Origin: Chlorobiota bacterium
GTDB taxonomy: Bacteria; Bacteroidota; Ignavibacteria; OLB7
DNA: 64,000 bases
Direction: 5' to 3'
NCBI GenBank assembly: GCA_028287785.1
Contig: JAQBOZ010000028.1
Span: 372,001-436,000, forward strand
Positions 2,833 to 52,470 of the stretch are shown one piece after another. The notes beneath the pieces are model-generated. The model did not search any database. It was not told the DNA's origin and saw nothing but the letters and a program-made list of their open reading frames with translations. The position numbers and the translations under genes are program-made. Every line of letters begins with the position of its first letter. The stretch's first letter is position 1.

Positions 2833-4998
2833 CTAACGCGAACGCGGCTGGCTGCTGGTGTCGTTGCTCTCGCCGGGTATCGGCGTTTCGACAATCACCG
2901 TCACTGTACGGCTGTAATAGCGACCCTCCGGGTTGCTGTTATCGTACACAAGCCCCTTCTCTCCCATCCCCACGACTTCCTTCGACTGCACGTTGAGAAG
3001 GTTCGCCGCGAACTCGGCGCGTCGCTTCGAGAGCGCCAGGTTGTAATACGGAAGGCCGATGCGATCGGTATGGCCGATGATCCGCACGGTGGAATTCGGG
3101 AAGATCTTATGCCTGATGATATCGGCGGACTGCCCGGAGAAGCCGGTCGCCTGCGAGCTGTCGAAGCTGAAGAGGAGCAGATTATAGGTGTCGACGTATT
3201 TCCCGCCGACCACCGTCCGGTCCTCCTGGAAATCCCCCTCCTGCCGCACCACCACTTTCGTGCTCTTGATCCGGGCAAGATCCTGATAGAGCGTATCGCG
3301 GATCACAAGCGTCGAGGATACGGTGACAGGCCCGCGCAGATCAAGATCGGGACGATTCTCGATCTGATAATCGATCTGCTTCGGCGGGGAACCGCTGCCG
3401 GTGACGGCGTGCTTGATCAGCGAGTCGCCGATCATCACGTCGAGCGACCATCCATCGACCGCGCCGGAGGTATCCTCCTTGGTGACCGGTGGAAGGAACC
3501 GGACGGTGCCGACCGGCTCCAGGAAGGTGGAATCGGGAAGCTCCAGCGGGCGCTCGAACACATATCCCTCCGACGCGAACTCCACCCGCTGATTCTCGCG
3601 CGATCCCTCCGCCACATCAACTTCGCTCAGCGATGGATTTGCCGGCAGGCCGCGCGCCACCACCTTGATCCGCTTGGTGGAGATCTTCCAGACGTTCACG
3701 AGATAATCGCGCACAACCTCGGCCCTGCGGTTGGCAAGCGTGCTGTCCCCCAGTTCGTCCCGGCTCAGACATCCGGTGATCGTAAGATCGCCGCGACGCG
3801 TATCGCGCATCCTGGCGCCGATGATATTGAGGATCTGATAATAGTTGCCGAGCGTGTTCCCACGCTGGAGTCGCTCCACCTGAAAGTTCTTCCGGTTCTT
3901 GGCGTCCAGGCGGATATACCGCTCGGGAATCGCCGCGGAGTCCCGCGGGAAGAAGACATACGGCAGCAGTGCCTCCACCTCGGTCGCCTTCACCTTCCGG
4001 TTGGAAATCGTGATCGTATCGGAAAGCCCCCCCACGGTAAGCCCCTTCGCGGAGAACGATGAATCGATCACCTTGGGAACCGTGCGGACAGTATCGTTCG
4101 CGGCAACGATCTTCGGTGGCGGCGGCGGCGCGCTCCCCTCGTCGCGAAGCCCGTAGCGGAAGCCGAGCACCAGCGCCGTCTGCGACATCTGCCAGCTTTC
4201 CCCGGTTTTCAGGGGGCTGAGAAGATCGTTCAGCATCGGCTGGATCTGGGCCTCCAGAAAAAGCCCGATGTTCGGGCCAAGCTGCCACTCGTAGCCGGCG
4301 CCGCCGGAAACCGCGAACGCGGTGGATGCCTTGTCGAACGCCTTCGAGCCCAGCGCGCGCGATGTCTTCCTGCCGGTCTTGTAGACCACCCCGGCGGGTC
4401 CGTCGATCTGCTCGTTATAGGTAAAGCTCGCCTGCGACGGGAAGAGGATCGTGGGGCCGGCATAGAAATAAAACGGGAAGGAGAACGGGGCGATCCTGGC
4501 GTACGGCGTGATGCTGATCTGCCCGAACTTCGTCGTCACCGTCCCCAGCACGCTTGCATCGGCGGGGCCGCCGGTGTTCTGCTGAACATCGCTCCTGTTG
4601 GTGTAGCGCTGCTGGAGCTGCCCGCTGTGAAGCTGGTAGCCGGCGCGGAGCCCCACATTGAAATTGTCGCTCAACGGTATCTCCGCCAGGAACCCGGCCA
4701 GCGCACCAAATCCATCCCCCTGCGTGAAGGTCGCCGTCGCCGGAAGCTGAAGCGTGCTGTTGAAGACCGTTGGAGGGAGAAATGCGTTGTACTGGACCGA
4801 GGCTATCCCGCCGTAAATGCCGAGATAGAGCCACGGAGTGTCGGAGTGGGCGGTATCCTCCGTCATGACGACGGAGGTGGTATCCCCCCCCTGCGCGGCG
4901 GCCGTGTGCGCGGCGAACAACGCCAGCAGCAGAGCAAGCCCCGCGATCCGCGCGCCGAGGCGCCGGTACGACGAAATCGGCCCCGATGGGGAGGTCAT
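2833..4998 (-). CDS. Outer-membrane beta-barrel protein with two OmpA-like domains
   Basis: A 721-residue envelope protein. A signal peptide (hydrophobic LALLLALFAAHTAAAQ, cleavage near residue 36) is followed by a barrel-type region at about 50-295, then a PPPPP linker, an OmpA-like domain at about 340-480 (VFFPRDSAAIPERY ... NQRVEF) and a second OmpA-like domain at about 605-705 (LLLFSFDSSQATGF, IIGHTDRIG, LSKRRAEFAANLL). OmpA-like domains bind peptidoglycan, so this protein probably anchors the outer membrane to the wall. In T9SS organisms such proteins can also belong to the secretion machinery, but nothing here proves that. The frame stays open upstream to 5160; ATG 5031 is possible, but 4998 gives a normal signal peptide. 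Confidence 0.85.
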   Translation of the reverse strand: MTSPSGPISSYRRLGARIAGLALLLALFAAHTAAAQGGDTTSVVMTEDTAHSDTPWLYLGIYGGIASVQYNAFLPPTVFNSTLQLPATATFTQGDGFGALAGFLAEIPLSDNFNVGLRAGYQLHSGQLQQRYTNRSDVQQNTGGPADASVLGTVTTKFGQISITPYARIAPFSFPFYFYAGPTILFPSQASFTYNEQIDGPAGVVYKTGRKTSRALGSKAFDKASTAFAVSGGAGYEWQLGPNIGLFLEAQIQPMLNDLLSPLKTGESWQMSQTALVLGFRYGLRDEGSAPPPPPKIVAANDTVRTVPKVIDSSFSAKGLTVGGLSDTITISNRKVKATEVEALLPYVFFPRDSAAIPERYIRLDAKNRKNFQVERLQRGNTLGNYYQILNIIGARMRDTRRGDLTITGCLSRDELGDSTLANRRAEVVRDYLVNVWKISTKRIKVVARGLPANPSLSEVDVAEGSRENQRVEFASEGYVFERPLELPDSTFLEPVGTVRFLPPVTKEDTSGAVDGWSLDVMIGDSLIKHAVTGSGSPPKQIDYQIENRPDLDLRGPVTVSSTLVIRDTLYQDLARIKSTKVVVRQEGDFQEDRTVVGGKYVDTYNLLLFSFDSSQATGFSGQSADIIRHKIFPNSTVRIIGHTDRIGLPYYNLALSKRRAEFAANLLNVQSKEVVGMGEKGLVYDNSNPEGRYYSRTVTVIVETPIPGESNDTSSQPRSR

Positions 4999-5228
4999 AG
5001 GAAGCGAGGTTGGTAGACAGGTCGGGTTCATAGATAAATCGCTTGGTTGTGCTTCCCCCTGCAAACATCCGGCCAAATGGCCGGGACGAGTGATCACCGG
5101 AGGGGGATATCCAGCACGGTCCCGATCCTGATAAGGGGATCGGGAGATCGATGAGATCATGACGATATCACCACACCGACATAACGTCCGGAAATACGGT
5201 CCGTTAGATCGTTATACAATTCACTCTG

Positions 5229-51079: not shown

Positions 51080-51437
51080 CAGACCGTTGAACACCATCAT
51101 CCGCTGCGTTGGCGGAACCATCTTCCCAGGCCCCGGAGGGACGCAATCCCTGATGCGCGGGGCACCGCCCCGCGCACCTAACAAAAGCGGGAGGGGCAAT
51201 CCCCTCCCGCTGCTCCCAACGTGTGGTGGCTTCGGTTCCATTCAGGCGTACATGCTCCCCTCGTTGTGGTGGTGAAACGGAGGCGGTCTCATTACCATCC
51301 TCTCTACGGCGACATACCAGTCGAGGACGGTGAAGTCCGGTGTGGTTGTCCGGGACTTCTGCTCCCGCTCCAGCGGGTGGTGAACGGCCGGCGTGGTACT
51401 CCGGCTGGTTTTTTCTTGTGATGTTTCCATCAACAGG
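51080..51437. other. Intergenic stretch before the XRE-S24 promoter
   Basis: No supported gene; frames here are short. Contains a family B repeat (51128-51178). The remaining sequence before 51438 shows no recognisable element. Confidence 0.5.
51128..51178 (+). repeat. Dispersed GC-rich repeat, family B
   Basis: ccccggagggacgcaatccc followed by gcgcggggc-acc-gccccgcgc, near-identical in layout to the 11232 copy. It lies about 50 bp past the DUF1003 gene. Confidence 0.8.
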
Positions 51438-51466
51438 TTGACTTACTGGATGCAATGTAATATCTT
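51438..51466 (+). promoter_or_regulatory. Sigma70-like promoter of the XRE-S24 operon
   Basis: TTGACT (51438-51443), 17-bp spacer, TATCTT (51461-51466). The -35 matches 5/6 and the -10 4/6 of the consensus at ideal spacing. The -10 box lies inside a palindrome of the operator region. Confidence 0.6.
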
Positions 51467-51525
51467 TAGTGATAGAAATCAACACTATTGTGATATTTCT
51501 TCTATCAAAATAACGCTAAAGATAT
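51460..51525 (+). promoter_or_regulatory. Nested palindromes, probable operator of the XRE repressor
   Basis: Outer inverted repeat atatctttag (51460-51469) / ctaaagatat (51516-51525), the second arm overlapping the ATG of the XRE gene. Inside it are gatagaa (51471-51477) / ttctatc (51500-51506) and two gtgata half-sites. The stretch is markedly AT-rich compared with its surroundings. Confidence 0.6.
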
Positions 51526-51919
51526 GAGCACTCTGGGAGAACGAGTGAGGCAACTGCGGTTACGGCATAGGCTGTCACAGCAGGAATTTGCCGAAAATCT
51601 CGGTATTTCACAAAGTTTCCTTTCCGATATAGAGAGGGATACGAAGATTCCCGGGGGTGATACCCTGCTATCGCTAAAGCGATCATACGGGATAAGCATC
51701 GACTGGCTGCTGGGGGGTGAGCTGGAGATTTTTGAGGAGGGAGCGCGTGTGGACAATACCGGGAAGAGCCGTATGATTGTACCGTTGACGGTCGCCTCCG
51801 GTGACGACCGCGTCATGGTCCTTGAAACGAAGGTGGCCGAGATGGAACGAGAGATATTGACGCTTCGAGGTCAGATCTCCGCATACAAGGAGATTCTCAC
51901 TACATTGAAATCCAACTGA
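51524..51919 (+). CDS. XRE-family transcriptional regulator
   Basis: A 131-residue repressor-like protein. Residues 5-65 are a Cro/CI-type helix-turn-helix (RLRHRLSQQEFAENLGISQS, FLSDIERDTKIPGGDTLLSL, SYGISIDWLLGG). Residues 92-127 form a coiled coil (VMVLETKVAEMEREILTLRG), probably for dimerisation. Its start codon lies in the second arm of the operator palindrome, so it most likely represses itself. The next gene, an S24 peptidase, starts one base after the stop. Together they have the two functions that LexA and CI carry in one chain. Confidence 0.88.
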   Translation: MSTLGERVRQLRLRHRLSQQEFAENLGISQSFLSDIERDTKIPGGDTLLSLKRSYGISIDWLLGGELEIFEEGARVDNTGKSRMIVPLTVASGDDRVMVLETKVAEMEREILTLRGQISAYKEILTTLKSN

Positions 51920-51920
51920 G

Positions 51921-52409
51921 ATGAAAAGCGACCGCGAACAGCCTTCCAACGTGTTGCCGATATCAGGGTCCAGACACCAGCCGTTGCGGATCACGGAATT
52001 CTATATGCCCGAGCTATCCGATATCATCGCCCTCCCCCTCTTTCTTGCACCGGTCTCCGCCGGCTCACCCATGTCGGCAGAGGATTATGTCGAGCGAAAA
52101 CTCGATATCAGCCGCCATCTGGTGAAAAACCCCGCCACGACCTTCCTGGTCCGCGTCACCGGCAACTCGATGACCGGCGCGGGAATACAGTCGGGCGATC
52201 TCCTCGTCGTCGATAGCTCCATCGAAGCCGAGGATGGAAAAGTTGTCATCGCCGTGGTCGATGGCGAGCTTACCGTGAAACGGCTCCGCCACGATGGCGA
52301 AGCGATCAGCCTCCTCCCCGAAAATCCCGACTACGCCCCGATCGAGCTCGCCAGCGATGCCAGCTTCCAGATCTGGGGAGTGGTCACCAGCGTGATCCAC
52401 AACCTCTGA
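51921..52409 (+). CDS. UmuD/LexA-like S24-family autopeptidase
   Basis: A 162-residue S24 peptidase. The probable self-cleavage site is A47-G48 (PVSAGSPM), the nucleophile is S83 (VTGNSMTGAG) and the base K120 (GELTVKRL). Cleavage site to Ser is 36 residues and Ser to Lys is 37, the same spacing as E. coli UmuD (24/60/97). In UmuD and LexA, RecA-ssDNA filaments stimulate this self-cleavage in the SOS response. It has no helix-turn-helix, and there is no umuC or other polymerase gene downstream. It is coupled to the XRE gene upstream, so a role as the peptidase half of a split repressor is likely but inferred. Confidence 0.86.
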   Translation: MKSDREQPSNVLPISGSRHQPLRITEFYMPELSDIIALPLFLAPVSAGSPMSAEDYVERKLDISRHLVKNPATTFLVRVTGNSMTGAGIQSGDLLVVDSSIEAEDGKVVIAVVDGELTVKRLRHDGEAISLLPENPDYAPIELASDASFQIWGVVTSVIHNL

Positions 52410-52426
52410 GCCCCCTTCGGGGGGCT
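52409..52426 (+). terminator. TTCG-loop hairpin at the end of the XRE-S24 operon
   Basis: Stem agccccc / gggggct with an ultra-stable TTCG loop, beginning at the stop codon of the peptidase gene. No T-run follows, so termination may be rho-assisted. Confidence 0.6.
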
Positions 52427-52470
52427 TCCCGCGATCGCCGACGATATCGGCCCGCATCCGCCCGTTTTCC

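Follow-up and report, generated by a model that had tools for sequence, protein, structure and literature searches.

In ICEBs1 and in Deinococcus an XRE repressor (ImmR and DdrO, respectively) is accompanied by a separately encoded peptidase, and these partners, ImmA and IrrE/PprI, are metalloproteases that cut their repressors. The non-canonical LexA of Bacteroidetes combines a CI-type helix-turn-helix (HTH) with an S24 domain in one fused protein and has CTAA-N5-TTAG as its SOS box (PMC8565304). In Acinetobacter the UmuD homolog UmuDAb has turned repressor and is found with a small co-repressor, DdrR (PMC11332147).

The two-gene locus described here lies in a window of 64,000 nucleotides, the whole stretch analysed, from a Chlorobiota bacterium. 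It resembles non-canonical LexA in having an HTH of the CI/XRE kind and an S24 domain with the A-G, Ser and Lys residues, as well as two 7/8 matches to CTAA-N5-TTAG in its promoter, but consists of two proteins rather than one and its S24 part belongs to the UmuD family. As with UmuDAb-DdrR, a UmuD homolog would take part in gene repression and a second small protein is encoded next to it; however, DNA is bound there by UmuDAb and not by DdrR, whereas here the neighboring XRE protein is the predicted DNA binder, and LexA, absent from the Acinetobacter system, is present. With ImmR-ImmA and DdrO-IrrE/PprI the locus has in common an XRE repressor and a separately encoded peptidase, and the HTH fold is structurally closest to those of P22 C2, ImmR and DdrO, although the peptidase is in this case a self-cleaving serine S24 protein. 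That protein matches the UmuD of umuDC operons in family, length, N-terminal arm and catalytic residues, but has no umuC beside it and an XRE gene upstream.

Operon anatomy and the two proteins

The xre gene (51524..51919, forward strand) encodes a 131-aa Cro/CI-type regulator and is followed after a single base by umuD (51921..52409, forward strand), which encodes a 162-aa UmuD-family S24 autopeptidase. The reading frames are offset by +1 with the junction TGA-G-ATG, and the DNA-binding and S24 parts that LexA, non-canonical LexA and CI carry in one chain are therefore present as two ORFs in different frames. This arrangement had been claimed in a preliminary description of the locus and was confirmed, as was the assignment of the two products by matches to HTH_3 (1.9e-13; 50.7 bits against a cut-off of 23) and Peptidase_S24 (1.3e-33). 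The claim that no polymerase gene follows umuD also held; the next gene encodes an E1 dehydrogenase (PF00676/PF02779/PF02780), and the gap of only approximately 200 bp leaves no room for the umuC that directly follows umuD in umuDC operons. A G+C-rich hairpin (52408..52427, forward strand; TTCG loop) spans the umuD stop codon and represents a possible operon end, although its folding energy of -16.7 kcal/mol (z -1.5) is not significant, only a short T tract lies behind it and it was not picked up by a terminator scan. An Rfam search gave no match near the operon.

The S24 protein scored 150 bits against the NCBIfam UmuD model NF007621 (cut-off 110), remained under the cut-off of the LexA model TIGR00498, and matched both PHROG 811 (phrog_811, 'UmuD-like'; 6e-46) and the solved E. 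coli UmuD (8gmt; 5e-30). The cleavage site A47-G48 (52059..52064), the nucleophile Ser83 (52167..52169) and the general base Lys120 (52278..52280), all on the forward strand, are invariant across an alignment of 16 relatives. The UmuD-like spacing previously ascribed to these residues was verified, with Gly-Ser-Lys distances of 35 and 37 equal to those of E. coli UmuD, where the residues are G25, S60 and K97. A tree built from 88 S24 domains placed the protein among UmuD proteins, with LexA apart; the branch joining UmuD-type sequences had support of 95/94, while position within this clade was weakly supported. Its nearest tree neighbors are UmuDs, mostly cyanobacterial, that also lack an adjacent umuC, in a weak grouping (93/80). 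The nearest UmuDs from the same phylum, in family f18 (53-56% identity), likewise have no umuC next door, so that the lack of an adjacent umuC is not peculiar to this locus. In all three f18 genomes (L144-L146) the UmuD gene lies upstream of an aminotransferase gene, and in two of them a dtd-like gene is on its other side. The protein has its own start and a normal, full UmuD N-terminal arm and does not resemble the C-terminal part of a larger repressor.

The AlphaFold model of XRE (mean pLDDT 75, pTM 0.51, from six sequences) consists of an HTH bundle (helices 4-64), a disordered linker (72-91) and a single long helix (94-130), predicted to form a coiled coil. The only full-length relatives found were stand-alone XRE-coiled-coil proteins of the distant family f44, with which XRE aligns end to end, up to their C-terminus (approximately 34% identity over 129 aa for L244 and L245). 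Their genes have a divergently oriented response-regulator receiver gene, and no S24 gene, as neighbor, which suggests that two complete proteins have apparently been brought side by side rather than a fusion broken. The divergent arrangement with a single-domain receiver was seen at L244, L245 and L248. Within the linker of XRE the segment VPLTVASG (residues 86-93; 51779..51802, forward strand), located between the HTH and the putatively dimerizing coiled coil, bears a speculative resemblance to an S24 cleavage-site segment. It is missing from the XRE homologs, its P1 residue is Ser rather than Ala or Cys, and for motifs of this kind, noticed here post hoc, the frequency in unrelated proteins is approximately 0.01-0.03 per 131 residues.

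Control region and SOS setting

The xre leader is AT-rich and contains a sigma-70-like candidate promoter on the forward strand (51438..51466), with TTGACT (51438-51443) and TATCTT (51461-51466) separated by a 17-nt spacer; the call rests on a 9/12 consensus match, and such matches are not proof. A candidate operator 1, GTAATATCTTTAGTGATA (51457..51474), covers the -10 box, and its inverted copy, candidate operator 2, TAACGCTAAAGATATGAG (51511..51528), covers the xre start codon; between them lies an imperfect palindrome, ATTGTGATA-N7-TATCAAAAT (51487..51511). The 15-nt inverted repeat formed by the two operators is matched at 13/15 positions, a fit equalled in only two of 400 shuffles, and CTTTAG-N-G is present in both arms. 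Exact copies of the core CTTTAG-N-GA also lie upstream of the XRE homologs L244, L246 and L248, although this core was picked after some of the compared promoters had been viewed and L246 and L248 belong to one genus. An unbiased 12-mer comparison of XRE-family promoters was not significant. The shared core is moderate evidence and suggests autoregulation by XRE, and the layout as a whole suggests that xre and umuD form a small self-regulated operon.

Both arms of the repeat also match CTAA-N5-TTAG at 7/8 positions, and these are the only two such near-matches in the window; two were found in 12 of 5000 local shuffles. This box is, however, missing from most other XRE-S24 promoters checked, whilst the XRE-family promoters share CTTTAG-N-GA, and an operator for XRE itself is thus favored. 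Control by a non-canonical LexA through CTAA-N5-TTAG was rejected on these grounds, and the match at the xre promoter may be a coincidence.

The genome encodes RecA and a genuine canonical LexA (197 bits, cut-off 111). The sequence GGTGTTC-N4-GANGACC, recognized by eye in the lexA and recA promoters of the family, is the probable LexA box of this family. Exact copies were found at lexA in the genome under study and at both lexA and recA in two other family genomes, G003 and G004; when one mismatch was allowed, counts in the genome under study were no better than the control. No copy of this box, even with three mismatches allowed, was present within 51080-51524, which makes canonical LexA control of xre-umuD unlikely, and this candidate was rejected. 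The preliminary description had counted against a split switch a fused LexA elsewhere in the genome that clearly accounts for SOS control; a LexA is indeed found, and its deduced box is absent from the xre promoter.

No Y-family polymerase was found in the assembly of this genome, which is 95% complete, but neither was the essential DnaE, and the missing UmuC/DinB is for this reason weak evidence. Three further family genomes, each 99-100% complete, likewise gave no Y-family (PF00817) hit; G001, which belongs to the same genus, encodes two DnaE proteins and one Y-family polymerase. On contig C25 of the genome under study (L003/L004) two LexA-like paralogs were observed in tandem, one apparently without the catalytic Lys, and contig C28 carries an XRE-S24 fusion (L005, 1144-1833) in which Ser is replaced by Ala and Lys by Arg and which is probably catalytically dead.

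Counterparts of the pair and competing readings

Fused proteins with an XRE domain, a coiled linker and a UmuD-type S24 domain are present in other Bacteroidota (L247, L249, L250, L254 and L255), and their HTH-coiled linker-S24 order matches the gene order xre-umuD. In L247, L249 and L250 the XRE domain is 38-42% and the S24 domain 39-40% identical to the pair described here. In fusions of family f14 the S24 domain is 38-44% identical to UmuD, and at the two loci for which reading extended far enough (L186 and L187) the fusion gene directly precedes an ImuB-like gene and DnaE2. The f14 proteins are alike in their parts, their order and the class of bacteria, but are fused and attached to the ImuB-like gene and dnaE2, whereas the locus in the window is split. 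In L186 (3689-9064) and L187 (1068-6540) the place of LexA at the head of a mutasome cassette is taken by an XRE-S24 protein.

A set of 153 newly fetched viral loci, each matching XRE or UmuD-type sequences, contained one split pair. This metagenomic prophage contig (L397, 2536-3378) encodes a separate XRE (29% identical) and UmuD-like S24 protein (47% identical) 31 bp apart, near integrase and RecT genes and in a CI-like position in the immunity region, with the palindrome-like ATTTTAGAAATCTCTAAAAT just upstream. The two ORFs share a frame, and the split is possibly the result of a stop mutation in a fused gene.

The search for a conserved XRE-S24 pair put forward in the preliminary description gave a negative outcome for chromosomes, as none of the other UmuD loci read from the genome collections, the class and the phylum has a separate XRE gene beside umuD. 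No close XRE match was found in relatives, including the one genome of the same genus. The pair is flanked by class II RNR and E1 genes, which in G001 and G002 are divergent neighbors with no XRE-UmuD pair between them, and GC3 of the xre-umuD block is 0.60-0.75 against 0.82-0.84 in the flanks. The pair was thus either gained in this lineage or lost elsewhere. Plasmid and phage records contained abundant UmuD relatives but no close XRE relatives; no annotated XRE gene was seen beside umuD in the four plasmid loci opened, where the gene table is incomplete, and a viral scan with XRE alone gave no match. Joint retention was observed on one viral contig rather than in several genomes, and so far the pair is a rare variant of the XRE plus S24 combination, present in one genome and, in similar form, on one phage contig.

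We tentatively favor, at a little under even probability, a recently acquired, self-contained and self-regulated RecA-responsive switch of two genes in which XRE represses and UmuD senses. The operon anatomy, the intact catalytic residues and the paired sites are seen directly. In this model XRE, with its HTH and C-terminal coiled coil, would dimerize and repress its own promoter by binding at the paired operators, and the shared mRNA would also yield UmuD, probably through translational coupling across the 1-base gap. As UmuD retains every residue needed for RecA-stimulated self-cleavage, it could serve as the stress-sensing partner; an uncleaved UmuD dimer would contact XRE and stabilize repression, and cleavage after DNA damage would lift it, possibly at further targets also. 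UmuD would then do in trans the job of the S24 domain that is fused to XRE in CI, non-canonical LexA and fusions of the XRE-UmuD type. The single candidate promoter, the adjacency of the genes with no polymerase after them, the inverted repeat rare in shuffles and the recurrence of its core at distant XRE homologs are consistent with such a switch. So are the fused counterparts in the phylum, those of f14 upstream of an ImuB-like gene and DnaE2, the CI-like position of the pair in prophage L397, the likeness of the HTH to P22 C2, ImmR and DdrO, the other UmuDs close to this one that have no adjacent umuC, and the precedent of UmuDAb-DdrR (PMC11332147). The full-length XRE homologs without S24 neighbors, the absence of the pair from relatives, the one same-genus genome included, the presence of canonical LexA and the uncertain absence of UmuC in an assembly without DnaE argue against it, and with its normal N-terminal arm UmuD could be an ordinary polymerase manager. 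This last reading, in which XRE is an autorepressor over an ordinary UmuD that it never meets, is the next most probable, a realistic if doubtful possibility; UmuD would manage a translesion polymerase encoded elsewhere or act on RecA, the clamp or the replicase. It accords with a full-length, typical UmuD, with XRE-plus-coiled-coil proteins that stand alone in other Bacteroidota, and with a polymerase that could sit in the missing part of the assembly, G001 having both a Y-family polymerase and two DnaE proteins. It is less easily reconciled with the absence of PF00817 from the three other family genomes of 99-100% completeness, the lack of the usual umuD partner next door and a split pair in a prophage immunity region without obvious polymerase role.

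A relic, with UmuD a transient passenger left when umuC was lost from an inserted umuDC operon or from a mobile element with an XRE regulator, is unlikely. The lineage-specific block of lower GC3 between the RNR and E1 genes would fit, but the two ORFs are undamaged and retain every catalytic residue, nothing resembling umuC was seen in the 200 bp after umuD and no integrase or transposase in the block, UmuDs lacking an adjacent umuC recur in family f18, and no XRE gene that might be the ancestor was seen next to umuD-umuC at any of the loci read. A fused XRE-S24 repressor split by frameshift or assembly error, as ORFs one frame apart across a 1-base gap and fused homologs of the same domain order might indicate, is highly improbable and was rejected; XRE is full length against the stand-alone XRE-coiled-coil proteins, UmuD starts independently and its N-terminal arm is complete, and joining the two would place two linkers in a row.

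The split LexA-like switch of the preliminary description is accordingly plausible but unproven. Its separate proteins, self-regulated-looking operon and intact S24 residues stood, and the same two parts occur fused in the phylum and split in a prophage immunity region; conservation of the pair did not, and the genuine LexA, the absence of its deduced box from the xre promoter and the XRE homologs without S24 count against it. One form of the two-gene switch, in which damage-activated UmuD acts in trans to cut the XRE linker at VPLTVAS-GDD, is very unlikely; if true, it would present a UmuD with a repressor as its substrate, a serine-peptidase counterpart of ImmA-ImmR and IrrE-DdrO. If XRE and UmuD cooperate at all, the sensing and DNA-binding functions of an S24 repressor need not share one chain and UmuD would have been recruited as a detachable damage sensor, a role that could explain UmuD genes without polymerases. 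With the fused (f14), split (the window and prophage L397) and UmuDAb forms taken together, a simple reporter strain would suffice to test the idea.

Further UmuD-like loci

UmuDs of cyanobacteria and alphaproteobacteria that lack an adjacent umuC (L039, L044, L057, L052, L062, L068, L070 and L071) were found to carry an N-terminal extension of approximately 60 aa with the motif M(T/P)RGG.R.GAGR..G..K..E.T..VR.P.S. Pfam gave no match to this extension in the four proteins tested, and it may be a DNA-binding part. In G002, which belongs to the family, two UmuD-like copies are present (41-43% identity; L185, 27-737, and L184, around 4631-5057), one of which contains a stop codon; the other has a masked upstream stretch and possibly lies beside an IS200-like transposase gene.
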